Shown here: piece by piece, positions 388 through 19,166 of the stretch
Position numbering within the stretch: position 1 is the first letter of the stretch
Layout: the number at the start of each line of letters is the position of its first letter
Source of the DNA: Rubripirellula lacrimiformis
GTDB lineage: Bacteria; Planctomycetota; Planctomycetia; Pirellulales; Pirellulaceae
Length of the DNA stretch: 64,000 bases
Assembly: GCF_007741535.1 (NCBI RefSeq)
Contig: NZ_CP036525.1
Location: forward strand, 186,001 to 250,000
Reading direction: 5' to 3'
Notes under the pieces: model-generated
Told to the model about the DNA's origin: nothing
Seen by the model: only the letters and a program-made list of their open reading frames with translations
The model's database searches: none
Position numbers and translations under genes: made by a program

Positions 388-474
388 GGATAACGGTGGC
401 CATCAGCGGGCACGGAAGGTGACTTGTCCATTGCCAAAAACCTCGCAAGCCGTGCTCCGTTGCATGGCTTGGTT
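388..474 (-). other. Integron attC site 4, larger part (interrupted by IS91)
   Basis: Read on the minus strand this is most of an attC, ending in the R' box GTTATCC (394-388). Its left-arm segment GCCAT-g-CAACGG-a-GCACGG pairs with GCCATCAGCGGGCACGG of the other arm, leaving an unpaired G and A exactly as in the three intact sites. The missing R'' box (GAATAAC) lies at 3143-3137, beyond the IS91 insertion. Joining the pieces at the shared AACC gives a site of about 91 bp, the same length as its neighbours. Confidence 0.8.
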
Positions 475-551
475 CAAGTAAGCCGCTATCGCGGCGGGAT
501 TTTGGTGAGGTGGAATTGATGAGGGAGTTGAGGTTTCGCTGAAGCATCCTG

Positions 552-596
552 GCAGGAGGAGCTGTTCGCTGTGAACAGCCCATCAACTCCTCCTGC
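552..596. repeat. Inverted repeat upstream of the IS91 recombinase gene
   Basis: GCAGGAGGAG (552-561) pairs with CTCCTCCTGC (587-596), and inside it GCTGTTC (561-567) pairs with GAACAGC (573-579). It ends 15 bases before the recombinase ATG, so it would lie in the mRNA leader or form a cruciform near the element's left end. It could be an attenuator, an operator or part of the transposon end; the sequence does not decide. Confidence 0.6.
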
Positions 597-611
597 TACA
601 GGAACACATCC

Positions 612-1589
612 ATGCCCAAGTCTAACCCCCAGACTCCTGCAAATCCACGCGGTCGTTACTTTCCTGCCGAACTTCGCCAGCGTCTTTCCGAGGACCTGCA
701 TCTTACCGGAAAGGCGAAACGCACTCACGATGGCTACATCCGTGCCGTCCGGCAACTGTCCGACTTTGCGAAGTGCAGTCCCGACAAGGTCACCGAAACG
801 CAACTCCGCCAGTTCTTTCTACACCTCAAGAATGATCGCGAGTTCGCCAATGGGTCGCTTCGGGTCGCACTCTCGGGCGTGAAGTTCTTCTTCACCTTCA
901 CCTGCAAACGCGACTGGGAGATCTTCGCGATGCTCAAGCTGCAGAACGCCAAAACGCTGCCAGTCGTACTGACCATCGAGCAGGTCCACCGCATCATGCA
1001 GATCACCAAGACTCAACGCCTGCTTGTCTTCTTTTGGACCGTTTACACCATGGGACTGCGGCTCAACGAAGCCTTGAGCTTGCAGGTTGGTGACATCGAT
1101 GCCGCTCGCGGGTTCGCTCACATCCATCGCGGGAAAGGAGCCAAAGATCGCTTACTGCCGCTGCCACCTTCAACGCTGAAGTTGTTGCGAAGCTATTGGT
1201 GCACGCACCAGCATCCGTCGTTGCTGTTCCCCGGCAATCGACGCGGGCACTCACTGGCCAAGCACGGGATCAGCACGGCCAAGAACCCGATGTCTGAAAA
1301 GACCGTTCAGGAAGCCATCGCCAAGATCACCGGAACGATGAACCTGGGCAAGAAAGTCACGCTGCACACGCTCCGGCATTGTTACGCGACGCACCTACTC
1401 GAAGCGGGCGTCGGATTGAAGGCCCTCCAGAAACTGATGGGGCACTCTTCGCTACAGTCCACCATGATCTACCTGCACTTGACCGACACCGCCGAGGCCA
1501 ACTCGCGCGAGGTCATTAACATGATGTTCGGCAAATCGCCCGGAGAAGACGACGGCAACGATGCCGGTGCGAAAGCTAAGTTGAAGTAG
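612..1589 (+). CDS. Tyrosine recombinase carried by the IS91-family element
   Basis: A 325-residue phage-integrase-family recombinase. The N-terminal part (about 20-110) is the SAM-like core-binding domain and the C-terminal part is the catalytic domain. All catalytic positions are visible: Arg150 in GLRLNEAL, a Lys in the KGAKDR hairpin (175/178), His252 and Arg255 in HTLRH, His278 in LMGHSS and the nucleophile Tyr287 in TMIYLH, so it looks intact. The ATG at 612 follows the palindrome at 552-596. Sixteen bases separate its stop from the transposase gene, so the two are probably co-transcribed. Recombinase-plus-transposase pairs are known in one branch of the IS91 family; the recombinase may resolve transposition intermediates, which is inference. 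Confidence 0.9.
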   Translation: MPKSNPQTPANPRGRYFPAELRQRLSEDLHLTGKAKRTHDGYIRAVRQLSDFAKCSPDKVTETQLRQFFLHLKNDREFANGSLRVALSGVKFFFTFTCKRDWEIFAMLKLQNAKTLPVVLTIEQVHRIMQITKTQRLLVFFWTVYTMGLRLNEALSLQVGDIDAARGFAHIHRGKGAKDRLLPLPPSTLKLLRSYWCTHQHPSLLFPGNRRGHSLAKHGISTAKNPMSEKTVQEAIAKITGTMNLGKKVTLHTLRHCYATHLLEAGVGLKALQKLMGHSSLQSTMIYLHLTDTAEANSREVINMMFGKSPGEDDGNDAGAKAKLK

Positions 1590-1605
1590 CCTCTGCATCA
1601 GCAAG

Positions 1606-2757
1606 ATGCCCAGCGTCAGCGATGCCTTACGGCAGTTCGCACCGGCTTACTTGAAACAGAATCCCGGCTCCGTCTCAGTCATCCAGCAGAAAGTTCTTGG
1701 CGTGATCACGCGTTGCCGTACCGGCGCGCTTGGTGGCGTTCACTATCAATGCGACGGATGCGGGCGAGAACACTGGGTCGGGCGTTCGTGTGGCAATCGG
1801 CACTGCCCGAACTGTGGTCACGAGAAAACGCAGCTGTGGATTGAAACGCAGTCCGCCAAGTTAATGCCAGTGCATCACTTCCTCGTCACTTTCACGGTCC
1901 CTCGTGAACTGGGCTTGGTGCTGCGCGCTCATCAGCAAGACGGATACCGCTGTCTATTCGATGCCAGTAGCCAGAGCATCCGCGACGTCGGCGCGGCGAC
2001 CAAGGCCCTGCGCGGTTGCGTGCTGGGGTTCTTCGGTGTGCTGCATACTTGGGGGCGTGACCCTGCCGTCTATCATCCGCACATTCACTATGTCGTTCCC
2101 GGCGGCGGAGTGAAGTTGGATGAGAGCGGCAATGCGGTCTCGTGGCAGAGCACACCGAAGAACTTCCTGTTCCATCATGCGACGTTGATACGAGTCTACA
2201 AGGCCAAGCTCGCCGACGAACTCCGGACGGCGGGCCTCTATGACTGTGTTCCCAAGCAAGCTTGGGACAAAAACTTCGTCGTCGACATCCAACCGGTCGG
2301 ACACGGCGTGCCGACGCTGAAGTACTTGGCACCGTACGTGCACCGCGTGGCGATCAACAACAGTCGCATCGTGTCGGTCGATGAAGCGGAAGTGATTTAT
2401 ACGATTCGCCGCAGCAAGCCGAAGCGAATGGAAACCAAGCGTGTCGCCGGCGAAACGTTCGTCGCGAGCTTCTTACAGCACGTTCTGCCACCGGGCTTCC
2501 ACAAGATCCGGCACTACGGCTGGATGAGCTCGAACAGCAAACTGGCCATCGAGGAGGTGAAGTGGTTGGTGTGGCTGTTCTTGGGCTGGACTTTCTGGCT
2601 GGGCAGCGGCCACGCACCGCAAGAGAAACCACTGACGGCGCCGCTTCGGTGTGCCGTCTGTGGCGGCCAGTTGCGGGTGGTGGAGGTGACCTACGAGTCG
2701 CTGCAATCGGCCCGGATCATCCCCGAACATTCGCTGACATATTTCGACAGTGGATAA
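1606..2757 (+). CDS. IS91-family HUH transposase
   Basis: A 383-residue transposase of the IS91/IS801 type, which moves by a rolling-circle-like mechanism. An N-terminal zinc-binding cluster has Cys49, Cys52, Cys62, Cys67 and Cys70. The metal-binding HUH motif is HPHIH (157-161) followed by a Gly-rich stretch. The catalytic tyrosine is probably Tyr240 or Tyr244 in LKYLAPYVHR. A further CxxC pair lies near the C-terminus. No frameshift is visible and the length fits the family, so the protein may be active. It follows the recombinase gene by 16 bp on the same strand. Confidence 0.93.
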   Translation: MPSVSDALRQFAPAYLKQNPGSVSVIQQKVLGVITRCRTGALGGVHYQCDGCGREHWVGRSCGNRHCPNCGHEKTQLWIETQSAKLMPVHHFLVTFTVPRELGLVLRAHQQDGYRCLFDASSQSIRDVGAATKALRGCVLGFFGVLHTWGRDPAVYHPHIHYVVPGGGVKLDESGNAVSWQSTPKNFLFHHATLIRVYKAKLADELRTAGLYDCVPKQAWDKNFVVDIQPVGHGVPTLKYLAPYVHRVAINNSRIVSVDEAEVIYTIRRSKPKRMETKRVAGETFVASFLQHVLPPGFHKIRHYGWMSSNSKLAIEEVKWLVWLFLGWTFWLGSGHAPQEKPLTAPLRCAVCGGQLRVVEVTYESLQSARIIPEHSLTYFDSG

Positions 2758-3027
2758 ATGAGAACTTCAAAGCAGCGTCATGAATCATTCGAAGCGTCAC
2801 CGGGAGGGCGGGGGCTGAAGGTGCGCGGCAACGTCAACAACGATCGAGAAAATCCAGCATCAACGACGCTCAGGAGCACTGAGCTGCGGTCAGTAACGTC
2901 AACAGCAGTGGGCGACGAACCAGAAACTGGCACAGCAATCTCGCAAGTGCCGACCTGGGCACTCGACGCGCAGACGCAACCGGAAGCAAAACCCAAGTAA
3001 CCACCGGCGCTAACCTCCGGGCTTCTT

Positions 3028-3139
3028 GAACAAACGACTTGAACATCGGCTCGCAAGCTCGCGATGTCAAATCCTTATTGGTTGAACAAACGACTTGAAC
3101 ATCGGCTCGCAAGCTCGCGATGTCAAATCCTTATTGGTT
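3028..3139. repeat. 56-bp tandem direct repeat at the IS91 right junction
   Basis: Two identical 56-base units, 3028-3083 and 3084-3139, lie head to tail. Each starts with GAACAAACGACTTGAAC, contains the hairpin-forming CATCGGCTCGCAAGCTCG followed by CGATG, and ends in TTATTGGTT. The second unit abuts the attC remainder. They may be duplicated transposon termini or remnants of one-ended transposition; the GAAC at each start matches the IS91-family target preference. Confidence 0.85.
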
Positions 3140-3143
3140 ATTC
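3137..3143 (-). other. R'' box of the interrupted attC 4
   Basis: On the minus strand these bases read GAATAAC, the R''-type box expected 17 bases downstream of the cassette 4 stop codon. They complete the attC whose remainder lies at 388-474. GAATAAC is also the sequence found, in the opposite sense, as the R' box of attC 3 (3647-3653 on the plus strand). Confidence 0.75.
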
Positions 3144-3159
3144 GCCGCTGTTACAACCA

Positions 3160-3646: not shown

Positions 3647-3737
3647 GAATAACGGCAGTGGTCACCCGGCAAGCGCGGATGACTCTCCATTTGAAAACGC
3701 CCCGATTCGCGTGCTCGGGTGCACCACATTGTTGTCC
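3647..3737 (-). other. Integron attC site 3
   Basis: A 91-bp site. On the minus strand it starts with R'' GGACAAC (3737-3731) and ends with R' GTTATTC (3653-3647). The arms pair as GTGGT-g-CACCCG-a-GCACGCG against GTGGTCACCCGGCAAGCG, leaving an unpaired G and A in the left arm and one mismatch. The cassette 3 stop codon (3739-3741) is next to R'', as is usual for cassettes. Confidence 0.85.
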
Positions 3738-4338: not shown

Positions 4339-4431
4339 GGATAACGTTACGCGTAACCGGGAACGCGCGGAAAAGGTTTCAAACGACCAAATCGCTCAAC
4401 TCGCGTTCTCCGGTTCACGCGATGGTTACCC
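4339..4431 (-). other. Integron attC site 2
   Basis: A 93-bp site. On the minus strand R'' is GGGTAAC (4431-4425) and R' is GTTATCC (4345-4339). The stem segment CGCGT-g-AACCGG-a-GAACGCG matches CGCGTAACCGGGAACGCG of the other arm perfectly apart from the two unpaired bases G and A. Next to the boxes the spacers are 3 and 4 nt (cat/gtta). The TAA stop of cassette 2 is formed by R'' itself. Confidence 0.9.
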
Positions 4432-4932: not shown

Positions 4933-5533
<601 letters not shown>

Positions 5534-5660: not shown

Positions 5661-5807
5661 ATACGCTTAGCCCGAGCGAGGGGGAAGAGAGAACCGAATC
5701 TCGATTGAACTTTTCTGATTCAAAGCACTTTTTGCTTGCCTTTCCCCTCCGCGGGGGATAGAACACACGTTCACTGATGGGAGGTGCCTTTCGCTGAGGA
5801 TGTTCCA
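5568..5807. promoter_or_regulatory. Divergent leader between cassette array and integrase
   Basis: These 240 bases hold no gene and lie between the array (minus strand) and the integrase gene (plus strand), where integrons usually carry the cassette promoter Pc and the integrase promoter. I see no strong -35/-10 pair and no CTGT-N8-ACAG LexA box. The last bases carry GAGGA about 7 nt before the integrase ATG at 5808, a good ribosome-binding site. Confidence 0.45.
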
Positions 5808-7013
5808 ATGTCTGTTGAGCTGTTTCGTCAACGATTGAGCCGTGCCCAGCTGCATCCCAATGATTTGGCATGGATGCCGCAATGGTTCGATGAATACGCA
5901 AGACTACAGCAAGATGACGGCGAGCCTCTGAAGGTTGAGACGTCCCGGGTGCTCGCGTTCCTCCGTTCTCTCCGCGATCGGGGCGTGCCAGCCTGGCAGC
6001 GATTGCAGGCGGCCCGAGCGGTCGAGTGGTACCAAGCGCTCGTCTTACGCAATGACGAGGTGGATTTCGTTCATTTCAAACAGAAGCTTGGTGAGCTCGC
6101 TGAAGTTGAAAAGCGCGCCGGGGTGGCAGTCGAGAATGGAGGCGGTATGCCTGGCGAAGGCTTGCCAGGACTGATCGATCCGAATGAACCCGCAGCTGTA
6201 CGCAAAATGCGAGCGCGAATGCGGGTGCTCCATCACCCAAAGTCCACCGAACAGGCCTACGTCGGATGGCTCGTTCGTTTCATTCGCCACTTGGACGACG
6301 AAAATGTGGACAAATATGGCGAGCCCGAAATTGGGCAATTCCTAACCGAGCTAGCAGTCGTCGGTGAAGTTACTGCGGGGACGCAAAACCAAGCTCTGGC
6401 AGCATTGCTCTTCTTTTTTGGGAAGGTCGTCGGCCGCGATCTAAAGTTTGTCGAACGCGTCCGGGCAAAATCGAGCCGATACCTGCCGGTCGTGTTAAGC
6501 CGACCCGAGATTGCAGAACTGGCGCCCCACATACGTGGCATGAACGCAACGATGTTTCGGCTGATCTACGGCAGCGGACTGCGTCATCGCGAATGCCGTT
6601 GCCTGCGTATCAAGGATGTCTGTTTCGACACCGGTCATATTGTTGTTCGCGACGGCAAAGGTCAGCATGACCGGATCACCGTCCTGCCAGGTGCAGCCGT
6701 GGATTCGCTGCGAAGTTGCATTGACCTGGCCAGGTCGCTTCATCGCGATGATTTACAGGACGGACACGGCCGAGTCTATTTGCCGTTCGCACTCAAGCGA
6801 AAGTATCCCAATGCGGATCGTGAACTCGGCTGGCAATATGTTTTTCCATCGCGACAGTTGTCCAAAGATCCGCGAACCGGCCTGCTGCGCCGTCACCACG
6901 TGCACGCTGGCACTTTTGCAGATGCGATGAAGCGTGGCTTGTCGCGGACGTCGATCGTGAAGCCGGCGACACCGCATTCTCTGCGTCACAGTTTCGCGAC
7001 ACACTTGCTTGAA
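5808..7013 (+). pseudogene. intI: Integron integrase, truncated by IS1380
   Basis: The frame encodes 402 recognisable integron-integrase residues before the IS. They include Arg259 in GSGLRHREC, Lys284 in DGKGQHDR, the integron-specific insertion KRKYPNADRELGWQYVFPS (330-348) that binds the bulged bases of attC, and His390/Arg393 in HSLRH. Sequence stops after FATHLLE, where the IS inverted repeat begins, so the last catalytic His and the Tyr nucleophile (GHSD...MIYTH in relatives) are lost; the frame runs on to 7049 in IS sequence. Residues 1-130 are an N-terminal extension beyond the usual integrase length. The ATG at 5808 with GAGGA upstream is preferred over the GTG at 5784. It diverges from the array, as expected. 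The protein should be inactive. Confidence 0.92.
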
Positions 7014-8751
7014 CCCGCATTATTCACCAAACGTCTGAATGCGGCCTGATTTGTTGACGAGGCGGCTTGGAGCAGCGGCGTGATTGATTTTGGAGTTGGT
7101 TCTGTCGGTGAGCGCGCAACGGCCCCCTCCCCAAAGCCGTGTTTCGTGTCGATGGGTGCCTTTAGTGACGAAGCACTTCTTGCAAATGTGCGTGCTCCGG
7201 CGGTGGCGTGAAGCCATGGGCAGGACTCGCTTTCGGTGCTACGACTTGCCAGCCTTCGATACGGCCGATCAGACGGGACCACAACGGCTCGGCCGACTGA
7301 GAGATTCGCAGAACTAATCGGCGCGAGTGCTTGACCATTCGGCCGCCAACCTTCAGCATGAAATCGACGAACCGCTGCATGTCCCAGCAACCCCCCACCG
7401 CATCTTCGAGTTCATTGCGGCAGATCGTATTGAGATTGAAGGCCAGCAACGCAAGCAACATCGTCGCTTCGTTTTCCTTGAATCCCTGCGACGACAAGTG
7501 AACACCGATCGCTTCGTTGAACTCGCCAAGCCGGTCTTCAAACGTGCCTCGCTTGCGGTAGTGTGCCAGCAGTTCATCGGCACCGCGAGCATCCTCCGAC
7601 CAGTTCGTCACCAAGAAGAACCAACGCGGCATCAAGTTCAACTGACCTGTCTTGGAATCGGGCTGATCAACCACAACGAGGATCAGACGTTGGGCGTGCG
7701 TCCAAGAGTCGACCTGGTAGGGGCCAAGCTCAACGGTGTACTCGTAGCCGCCCTCCGGTGGTCGCCCCGGCGAACGAGCGATGTGTTGGGCAGCCAGCGT
7801 GTCGAGCTTCTTGTTCGTCTTCAGCCGTCCGACAAAACGCCTGTTTTTCGAGCTCAGTTCATCCATCACGCTGGGAATCGTGTAGCCCGCATCGAGTCGA
7901 TAATCAACGTGCTGTGCGATCGCGTGCGCGCGGGCATCGGTCTTGTCGACAAAGCGTCTCATGCCATTGGCGGTGTGAACTTGGCCTTGCCGAAGCGTCG
8001 CATGAATGAAGCCGTTGCCCAGTCGGTTGCCTTGTCGCGTGCTGTCGTAGTCGCCGTGGACGCTCAGCGATGCAACCAATGGATGGTAAACCGACTTTTT
8101 GTAGTAGCCGTTGTAGCTGGCTCCATGCTGTTTGCCATGTACTTCGATGGGGAAACTGTCAATGTCGATGGTGGCATGTTTGACGCGGCGACCTCCCGAG
8201 GCGAACACATGACGCTCGACACTTTGAGCAGTCCGTTTCGGACAGCTTCTAAGTTGCACTGCTGTCGAGCCAGGATGCTGATCAAGCGGGATTGAGTGGG
8301 TTGGCTTGCCAGTCGCTCGTCGGCGACCTTGTCGCCGGTGCGGTTCCAGACGGACACGCGAAAGGCAGGGGCATGAGCGAGTCGGTCGACGTCGTCTTGA
8401 GCGGAGCACCCAACGGCCATCGCAAAGGTCCGTTCGCGAATCAGCTCGTCGATGCGATAGCGAATGCGGTCGGGGCGTCTGGGATCACGGATGTCCTTAG
8501 CGATTGAATCGAACAGGCCGAGCCGATGTTCAGCTTCGCGAAGCAAGAGAACGCCGGCGTTGGCGGTGATTCGATGATCGGTCGCTTGAACCTTGACGGA
8601 GCGATTGAATTGCGGCTCAAAAAGATTACCTTGGTGTTCACCCATCGCGTGATTCCTTGCTGTGTTTAAGTTGGTTGTGGTTAACCGTTAAACGTAGCGT
8701 TTCACGCGATGGCTTTTCAATTCACGAAGTTCCCGGTGAATAATGCGGGTT
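7012..8751 (-). mobile_element. IS1380-family insertion sequence inside intI
   Basis: The element is bounded by inverted repeats AACCCGCATTATTCACC (7012-7028) and its complement GGTGAATAATGCGGGTT (8735-8751). It encloses one transposase region on the minus strand. The span of about 1.74 kb fits the family. No clear target duplication is seen, and the rest of the integrase gene does not resume on the right side, so a deletion probably accompanied or followed the insertion. Confidence 0.85.
7162..8645 (-). pseudogene. IS1380-family DDE transposase, frameshifted
   Basis: The N-terminal part starts at 8645 and reads as an IS1380 transposase through the RPDRIRYRIDELIRER and DERLASQPTQSR regions. 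The rest continues in another minus-strand frame down to 7162, with the DDE-type segments ATIDIDSF, RLDAGY and YRKRGTFEDRLGEFNEA. The frame change falls between about 8245 and 8225 and needs a single-base indel. Programmed frameshifting is not usual in IS1380, and I see no slippery run there, so I call it a pseudogene. A sequencing error is the alternative explanation. Confidence 0.85.
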
Positions 8752-17750: not shown

Positions 17751-19166
17751 ATGACTGAAAGCAAGGTATCTAAACAGGATCTGCATGCCATCCTGGCCCC
17801 GCATGACCAGCAGGACGTTCTTCGATTTTGGGACGACCTCGATTCGGCGGGGCGTGACCAGCTTGCCGCCCAGATCGCGGAGATCGATTTCGACGAATTG
17901 GACCAGTTGATCGCTGGCCAGGATGCCAAACGAGACTTTGCCGCGATGGCGGCTCGAGCGATGTCGCCGCCGTCGGTCAAGGCGGATGGTTCGGGGGCCG
18001 CATGGTCGGCTGCGGATGCGATCCAGCGAGGCGAGGCTGCCCTGGCAGCCGGTCAGGTCGGAGCCGTCTTGGTCGCCGGCGGCCAGGGGACTCGGTTGGG
18101 ATTCGACCAGCCCAAGGGCATGTTCCCGATCGGCCCCGTATCCAATCGGACCCTGTTCCAGTTCTTTGCGGATCGTTTGATCGCGATTGGACAGAAATAC
18201 GATGTCGAGGTGCCTTGGTACGTGATGACCAGCGATGCGACGGACGCCGAGACCCGGCAGTATTTCGAAGACAACGACTTCCTGGGGCTGAAGCCGGAAC
18301 AGGTCCGGATTTTCAAACAGGGGACGATGCCAGCGGTGGATGCGGCGTCGGGCAAACTGTTGATGGCGTCCAAAGATTCGTTGGCGCTTAGCCCCGATGG
18401 GCACGGCGGTACGGTCCGGGCGCTGCAGAGAAACGGGTGCTTGGACGATGCCGATCGGCGGGGAGTCCGGTATCTGGCATACATCCAGGTCGACAATCCG
18501 TTGGCCAATCTGTGCGATCCCGCCTTGATCGGGCACCACATTTTGGCCTCCAGCGAGATGACCACGCAGGTCGTCCGCAAGCGTTATCCGATGGAAAAAG
18601 TCGGCAACGTGGCGTTGGTGGATGGCCGCGTGGAGATTATCGAATACAGCGATTTGCCCGAGTCGGCGGCGAACGCAACCACCGACGATGGTCAGTTGCA
18701 GTTGTGGGCCGGGAACATCGGCGTCCACGTGATCAACGTCGATTTCCTGAACAGGATGAGCCAGTCGTCCGGGGCGCTGCCGTTCCACCGGGCGTCGAAA
18801 AAGGTCGCTCACGTCGATCAAGCGGGCAATTCGGTTGATCCGGATGTGCCGAATGCAACCAAGTTTGAACGTTTTATTTTCGATCTGTTGCCAGCAGCCG
18901 AGAATGCTTTTGTGGTCGAATCGTTGCCCAGCGAAGCATTTGCGCCTGTTAAGAACGCCGAAGGGGCGACGTCGGACACCGCATCACTGGCCAAAACCGC
19001 TGTGTCGGACCTGCATCGGGGTTGGATCGAGTCGGCGGGCGGCAGGGTGGATCCGGACGTTCTGGTAGAGATCAATCCTCGATACGCCCTTTCGCCAGGG
19101 GAACTAGCCAAAAAGATCCCGGCGAATTTCGAGATCCGTTCCGATCATTATTTGACATTTGAGTAG
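17751..19166 (+). CDS. UDPGP-family UDP-sugar pyrophosphorylase (UDP-GlcNAc type)
   Basis: A 471-residue nucleotidyltransferase of the UDPGP family, closest in motif to eukaryotic-type UDP-N-acetylglucosamine pyrophosphorylase, which makes UDP-GlcNAc from UTP and the sugar 1-phosphate. The nucleotide-binding loop is LVAGGQGTRLGF (about 101-112), followed by PKGMFPIG. Further family segments are SPDGHGG, YIQVDNPLANLCDP and the acidic GNIGVHVI stretch. The ATG at 17751 (MTESKV) is chosen because earlier in-frame Met codons overlap the preceding gene and add non-homologous sequence. Substrate preference (GlcNAc, GalNAc or Glc) is not certain. Confidence 0.85.
   Translation: MTESKVSKQDLHAILAPHDQQDVLRFWDDLDSAGRDQLAAQIAEIDFDELDQLIAGQDAKRDFAAMAARAMSPPSVKADGSGAAWSAADAIQRGEAALAAGQVGAVLVAGGQGTRLGFDQPKGMFPIGPVSNRTLFQFFADRLIAIGQKYDVEVPWYVMTSDATDAETRQYFEDNDFLGLKPEQVRIFKQGTMPAVDAASGKLLMASKDSLALSPDGHGGTVRALQRNGCLDDADRRGVRYLAYIQVDNPLANLCDPALIGHHILASSEMTTQVVRKRYPMEKVGNVALVDGRVEIIEYSDLPESAANATTDDGQLQLWAGNIGVHVINVDFLNRMSQSSGALPFHRASKKVAHVDQAGNSVDPDVPNATKFERFIFDLLPAAENAFVVESLPSEAFAPVKNAEGATSDTASLAKTAVSDLHRGWIESAGGRVDPDVLVEINPRYALSPGELAKKIPANFEIRSDHYLTFE

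Follow-up and report, generated by a model that had tools for sequence, protein, structure and literature searches.

Is the integron attC site a preferred target of some IS91-family transposons, or does one such element lie inside an attC by chance? The question is raised by a 64,000-nucleotide stretch of the Rubripirellula lacrimiformis genome (the window; positions 186001-250000 of contig C1 in genome G000, which is 8.54 Mb in one contig), where an IS91-family element interrupts an attC of a cassette array. The window element and its relatives (family 1) recur at the same point of attC, in an orientation that is fixed within the family, with conserved ends and in several phyla, and a distant lineage (family 2) does so at another point and in the opposite orientation. 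We consider it likely that these elements form an IS91-family group for which attC is the preferred target, probably through an HUH transposase that accepts the folded attC. The features of the insertion are as follows.

388..474, minus strand: interrupted attC, comprising R' (GGATAAC on the plus strand), L', loop, an L'' arm that has two unpaired bases, spacer TTG and the R'' GTT (covariance model)
475..498, plus strand: left end of the element, CAAGTAAGCCGC-TATC-GCGGCGGG, a hairpin 3' of the GTT^CAAG junction (identical in 4/4 copies; similar left ends in other phyla)
612..1589, plus strand: tyrosine recombinase open reading frame, 325 amino acids, XerA/XerC/integron-integrase-like (PF00589 5e-34, PF13495 3.8e-20)
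1606..2757, plus strand: IS91-family HUH transposase open reading frame, 383 amino acids (PF04986 2e-52; PF14319; NF033538 transpos_IS91 328 bits, cut-off 125)
3019..3083, plus strand: right end of the full element, GGGCTTCTTGAAC, hairpin 3044-3066, then TCAAATCCTTATTGGTT (copy comparison, folding)
3084..3139, plus strand: additional right-end copy, 56 bp, starting GAAC, a miniature unit of the one-ended type (similar tandem in L114)
3140..3149, minus strand: rest of the interrupted R'' box, GTT/ATTCGCC with the junction at the slash (junction and paralogue comparison)

Joining 388-474 to 3140 onward restores GGATAAC..GTTATTC with paired arms, spacers of 3 and 4 nucleotides and two unpaired bases, so that the initial annotation, which had placed an IS91-family element inside an attC at 388-3143, holds in its coordinates and in these details. 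Read on the minus strand, the joined site runs R'' GAATAAC, spacer CAA, L'' GCCAT-g-CAACGG-a-GCACGG, loop, L', spacer CACC and R' GTTATCC. An attC covariance model finds it at E 1.3e-14 (L003:1411-1507), and the same genome holds an uninterrupted attC paralogue (L066:18985-19086 = G000:C1 4328985-4329086) that is 91% identical over 102 bp spanning the junction, 8 bases of them on the R'' side. The target is an attC by its R'', L'' (with the extra G), L' and R' fold and by its similarity to intact attCs. An unpaired G is described as a mark specific to L'' (PMC2727003), and it lies here in the arm adjoining the element; the attC is therefore on the minus strand and the element sits at R'', not at R', the box at which integron integrase recombines (PMC2727003). 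This assignment is consistent with the presence on that strand of three intact attCs, which together with the integrase gene intI give the array a leftward, minus-strand polarity:

3651..3733, minus strand: intact neighbour attC (covariance model match in L003, E 8.7e-18; a training sequence of that model)
4343..4427, minus strand: intact neighbour attC (pairing and covariance model; also a training sequence)
4937..5019, minus strand: intact attC closest to intI (pairing; also a training sequence)
5784..7049, plus strand: intI, integron integrase gene, C-terminally truncated (TIGR02249 309 bits, cut-off 265, profile 2-274 of 315)

The element proper is shorter than the annotated span: it covers 475-3083 (2,609 bp, tyrosine recombinase gene first, HUH/Y2 transposase gene second) and is followed in tandem by a second copy of its last 56 bp, 3084-3139. 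The element starts with CAAG and the 56-bp unit with GAAC; miniature units keep a constant right end. The family-1 ends share a short inverted repeat, GTTCAAG(N)AAGCC, with a hairpin shortly inside the left end. The transposase carries an HxH motif (H159/H161) and Y240-x3-Y244, of which H159, H161 and Y244 do not vary among 24 aligned members and Y240 hardly varies; its closest named relatives come from Neorhodopirellula, Rubripirellula and planctomycete TBK1r. Foldseek searches with an AlphaFold model (pLDDT 84) return four relaxase chains and one Helitron transposase as the first five PDB matches, with zero matches at E 0.001 or better. The tyrosine recombinase resembles XerA and integron integrases, each NCBIfam match lying below its cut-off. 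On a Desulfobacterium contig (L114:5347-5460), a tandem miniature right-end unit that starts with GAAC resembles the unit at 3084-3139.

All four full family-1 copies in G000 lie within cassette arrays and occupy the same point, R'', of four different attCs. Pairwise differences among three of them amount to 1-2 bases, the fourth stands 39-40 bases apart from these, and after GTT their right flanks read ATTCGCC, CGCCGCC, ATCCGC and ATTTGG. The covariance model (R1) was trained on 34 other attCs of G000, one of which (L067:7783-7878) adjoins a family-2 left end, not a window-type element. It finds the four junctions at E 1.3e-14, 1.2e-13, 6.9e-13 and 5.1e-12, all of them antisense to the transposase. 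The attC at copy L004 likewise occurs elsewhere without an insertion, in a paralogue at L068:7884-7970 (87% over 87 bp, reaching 5 bases past the junction). The R'' GTT of an attC accounts for about 44 of 1,874 GTT triplets, both strands, in four array stretches (~2.3%; a recount of attCs at E 1e-5 or less gave 42), and the position of all four copies exceeds chance.

The genome also holds reduced versions of the element. Two internally deleted derivatives, in which element positions 558-888 are fused to 2137-2609, lie in L007/L009 and L008/L010, that in L008 with a right flank that has no GTT. A solo right-end fragment of ~53 bp (L011, G000:C1 2247059-2247111) adjoins GGATAAC, and L012 is a 34-bp match to the element.

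G000:C1 1925549-1926347 and 4317431-4318227: deleted derivatives, downstream of intI-like sequence (by eye)

The same position recurs in other genomes, sampled in three ways that overlap (for example, L230/L099, L236/L094 and L218/L090), so that the counts cannot be added. A genome of another genus (G040; 48% amino-acid identity) has 13 copies, nine of them at attC by covariance model, and near-identical uninterrupted attCs at L070:8797 and L073:4328; as with the G000 paralogues, the uninterrupted counterpart of the target is an attC, as the initial annotation expected. For a census, the left-end motif GTTCAAGNAAGCCGC..GCGGC was sought in 392 genomes belonging to the phylum of the window and in 396 belonging to its order, taken to be Planctomycetota and Pirellulales; the reversed motif gave zero matches among the rows listed. 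The sample comprised 54 places, of which two (G789:C82, G800:C214) were left out and 52 read, giving 51 distinct flanks after L192 and L214 (same last 40 nucleotides) were merged; the four G000 copies are included. An attC pairing test (score >=16) is passed by 34 of the 51 flanks, against 16 of 937 random GTT positions, and in each of these 34 the extra bases fit the R'' arm better. Among the 17 failing flanks, L006 and L218 are attC by model, their decayed R' boxes being missed by the strict score and recovered by the covariance model or a relaxed score, and L235, L237 and L207 are attC-like by eye; L164 and L239 have no transposase or recombinase frame downstream and may be non-elements, but are counted as misses. 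L218 is the same flank as L090, one site represented in two samples.

The third sample consists of named contigs retrieved with a transposase alignment (the best 80 of 131 loci). The left-end motif is absent from 23 of the 80, and two (L124, L125) have less than 90 nucleotides of flank; the remaining 55 give 56 sites, 54 of them distinct, and 34 of these are attC by pairing or model. The share is 18 of 19 in Planctomycetota (a group assigned by us, with L090, titled only 'bacterium', counted within) and 16 of 35 elsewhere (Desulfobacterota, Rokubacteria, Accumulibacter, Verrucomicrobia and others), or 19 of 35 if L120, L138 and L155, attC by eye, are added. Left and right ends are similar across phyla. 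Run over 60 of the 80 loci, R1 gives 104 matches, of which 103 are antisense to the transposase. For 23 matches, from 22 loci, the end falls exactly 7 nucleotides beyond a left-end junction (18 at E 1.8e-4 or less, five at E 0.02-0.14); most of the remainder are further attCs in the arrays. The bias of IS91 sites towards attC, on which the initial annotation made its idea depend, is thus strong in Planctomycetota and holds for roughly half of those from other phyla.

Five more IS91-type transposase matches in G000 led to a second set of ends: on the left, GTT followed directly by GAACTTAATCGA; on the right, a long hairpin and then a close at ..AATTCGTT. Left ends were sought in L063-L068 and L245-L250, and nine were found (L250 has three, L065 and L068 two each, L064 and L067 one each); none of them belongs to L249, the fifth transposase match. 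All nine follow an attC at its R' box, sense with the transposase (covariance model E 7e-17 to 1e-6, the L067 site being in the training set and one L065 match partial), against four of four antisense for family 1 in the same genome. In a quick tree, a long branch separates family 2 from family 1. One subtype carries a tyrosine recombinase and a transposase (2.9 kb, plus a shorter copy), whereas family 2b, with two copies (2,029 and 2,030 bp) at two attCs, has an IS91 transposase (NF033538, 286 bits) and no recognisable tyrosine recombinase; the two subtypes have common ends and transposases that are 46% identical. A motif search of other genomes, one of them (G014) of the same genus, located four family-2 left ends: L252 (E 3.3e-7) and L253 (E 2.4e-16) are at attC, L254 and L256 are not. 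No left end was located at three additional loci.

G000:C1 1930582-1932612 (L064:15582-17612; also in L250): family-2 locus

Read on the transposase-sense strand, the junctions of both families have one layout: attC hairpin, short spacer, GTT and then the element, which begins with CAAG in family 1 or GAAC in family 2. The right ends of the elements repeat it (hairpin, spacer, closing ..GTT), and that of family 1, CTTGAAC-hairpin-spacer-GTT, resembles the attC strand. In G000 it closes with TTGGTT, as do two of the four target attCs (CTTGGTT), and in G040 with ATTGTT, where seven of the nine target attCs have TTGTT. A transposase acting on single strands may read its own end as a hairpin plus GTT and accept the folded attC strand as the equivalent of that end; it would then cut the R box at its GTT and join the element right after that triplet. 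The single-stranded state of the target, its recognition as a hairpin, the strand cut and catalysis by the HUH protein are predictions of this model. Family 2b, which reaches attC without a tyrosine recombinase of its own, favours the transposase as the integrating enzyme. The proposal of the initial annotation that IS91 elements prefer folded attC therefore stands as regards the recurrent position, while single-strand hairpin recognition and the action of the HUH protein rather than the tyrosine recombinase are the probable route to it.

Several observations weigh against this reading. Outside Planctomycetota 19 of the 35 sites fail the attC test (16 of 35 after the three by-eye calls). At 34 failing sites from 31 loci (L120, L138 and L155 included; L032, whose left junction has no GTT, excluded) the hairpin sought has a median of -5.2 kcal/mol, against -5.35 kcal/mol at 192 random GTT positions. 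With no unusual hairpin at the failing sites, the preference either is not absolute or has been blurred by later rearrangement; in the quick tree attC and non-attC sites are interspersed, with 11 changes. A test of whether R' and the right flank derive from one attC, by their match to each other, was not significant (1.79 versus 1.63 matches of 4, p 0.16, n=34, permutation), and at L151 the pairing finder gives the orientation opposite to a weak covariance model match. By covariance model four G040 copies are not at attC: L021, L032, L036 and L037, the last of which comes after another copy's right end. Four of the nine G040 attC sites (L018, L034, L039 and L040) have nearly identical attC hairpins, with different sequence past the R' box, and are therefore not fully independent.

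A different mode of recognition has a small chance of being right: the transposase might read a short double-stranded TTGGTT-like sequence rather than a hairpin, and would strike attC since each R box contains GTT. GTT does precede the left ends (by construction in the motif searches), and the right-end terminus resembles the host attC spacer plus GTT in the proportions given above for G000 and G040. Yet only ~2.3% of array GTTs are R'' boxes and all four family-1 copies in G000 lie there, and attCs of different phyla are alike mainly in box and fold.

A different enzyme is rather improbable. The element's XerD/IntI-like tyrosine recombinase would, on this account, integrate a circular form at attC through the boxes GTTCAAG(N)AAGCC / GGCTTCTTGAAC, the HUH protein only copying the element. 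A recombinase match is present in 75 of the 80 loci retrieved by transposase, the window enzyme has its likeness to XerA and integron integrases (below cut-off), and the left end and the inner box of the right end form inverted repeats around a hairpin, an attC-like arrangement. Against this stand the two family-2b copies, which lie at attC without the gene, so that a tyrosine recombinase is not required in cis; help in trans is possible, since their ends are common to the recombinase-bearing subtype in the same genome, and would weaken the case for the transposase. A Rubripirellula copy (L015/L083) also lies inside an attC although most of its recombinase gene is deleted. The converse is seen on plasmids: a plasmid search gave 273 records (32-36% identity among the 40 matches listed), at least 174 of them in named alphaproteobacterial genera, and the three that were read, relatives with a tyrosine recombinase (L170-L172; two alphaproteobacterial, one from Herpetosiphon), showed no attC by covariance model.

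We give similarly little credence to the view that the elements are gene cassettes whose right end is an attC and which IntI inserted. Family 2 does look like a cassette, with its junction at the GTT of R' and an R''-like box in the right end that is complementary to the element's own start, and the product would be identical had integron integrase inserted it as one, which counts against the transposase. The interrupted attC together with the left end also scores 74.9 bits, inside the range of 58.0-89.0 for the other attCs of the locus, some of them training sequences. But family 1 sits at R'', where IntI is described as not recombining (PMC2727003), three of five folded right ends have symmetric mismatches rather than one-sided extra bases (those of the window and L113 are asymmetric), and some members occupy non-attC sites. 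The reading of family 1 as an ordinary gene cassette was rejected, its junction lying at R'' instead of R'. Passive survival of insertions in long, dispensable arrays, with the attC position a coincidence, would suit the location of the four full G000 copies in cassette arrays but has next to no chance of being correct, contradicted as it is by the exact position and fixed orientation in both genome and census.

Targeting of attC through the HUH transposase, if true, connects single-strand transposition with single-strand integron recombination, makes testable the recognition by an HUH transposase of folded structure, not sequence, in its target, and gives rolling-circle elements a possible way of entering cassette arrays, and of breaking or building them, in several phyla. 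We regard as possible, though doubtful, a further step in which the right end is a functional attC mimic and the left end restores the R'' box, insertion using the hairpin and leaving a usable attC; were it so, the element would ride as, or create, gene cassettes movable by integron integrase, and rolling-circle transposons and integrons would be lasting partners in two or more distant IS91 lineages, with a possible bearing on the tie between ISCR1 and class 1 integrons.

Two further observations concern the surroundings of the array. About 110 bases past the truncated intI, DDE transposase frames lie on the opposite strand (window 7162-8645; PF13701 on 7162-8409). Isolated attC-like pairing matches outside the array occur at window positions 17929, 35960 and 46249 (score 19-22), and a control with the reversed window sequence gives two such matches.

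Our literature search, outside which lay most subscription papers and preprints, found no report of attC targeting by IS91-type elements, though one may exist in print. The IS91 family is defined by unlike ends with a subterminal hairpin in each, and the window element has both; like IS91, IS801, IS1294 and ISCR it combines an HUH/Y2 transposase and hairpin-bearing unlike ends with GAAC or CAAG at the left end. IS1294 forms one-ended miniature products with a constant right end. Such products are described for IS801 too (PMC3189936), and the GAAC-starting 56-bp unit is comparable to them. Unlike IS801, whose targets are described as the tetranucleotides GAAC, GGAC, CAAG and CGAC, the window-type element has as its target the GTT that an attC carries in its R box, next to the attC hairpin; the G000 right flanks after GTT begin ATTC, CGCC, ATCC and ATTT, and only the tandem junction between element and 56-bp unit reads GAAC next to the right end. 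Placement in the IS91 family therefore rests on the transposase profile, and the target rule is the point of departure.

Two elements have been described close to integron sites. ISShvi3, an IS91-like element, adjoins an attC in Shewanella sp. Choline-02u; in the sections that treat it, the authors report no insertion sequence interrupting attC (PMC9229058), and by its description it differs from the window element as a single case for which no target preference is proposed. ISHahl1 of H. halochloris, from another HUH family (IS200/IS605), lies directly downstream of a gene cassette, and its authors remark on the clustering of elements that require single strands (PMC7923331); that account, where it deals with ISHahl1, describes neither insertion inside attC nor a target preference.

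Targeting of attC itself is established for unrelated elements, as the initial annotation had stated for other insertion sequence families. The IS1111-attC group was reportedly described by Tetu and Holmes in 2008 and Post and Hall in 2009. Its targeting is treated in later work (PMC11187229; PMC3589745), and one review lists the IS4-like IS1999 alongside it (PMC3589745). Group IIC-attC introns likewise target attC (PMC8876359), inserting into the bottom strand of attC, which provides the stem-loop that lies upstream of the point of insertion (PMC7923331), but they are retroelements with a ribozyme and a reverse transcriptase. Members of the IS1111-attC group (ISKpn4, ISPst6) share the attC target with the window element and use an unrelated enzyme, a DEDD transposase with a guiding seekRNA; profile searches found no such (IS110-type) transposase in the window element. 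The IS91-family group would thus add a mechanistically unrelated class to the elements that target attC, next to IS1111-attC insertion sequences and group IIC-attC introns.

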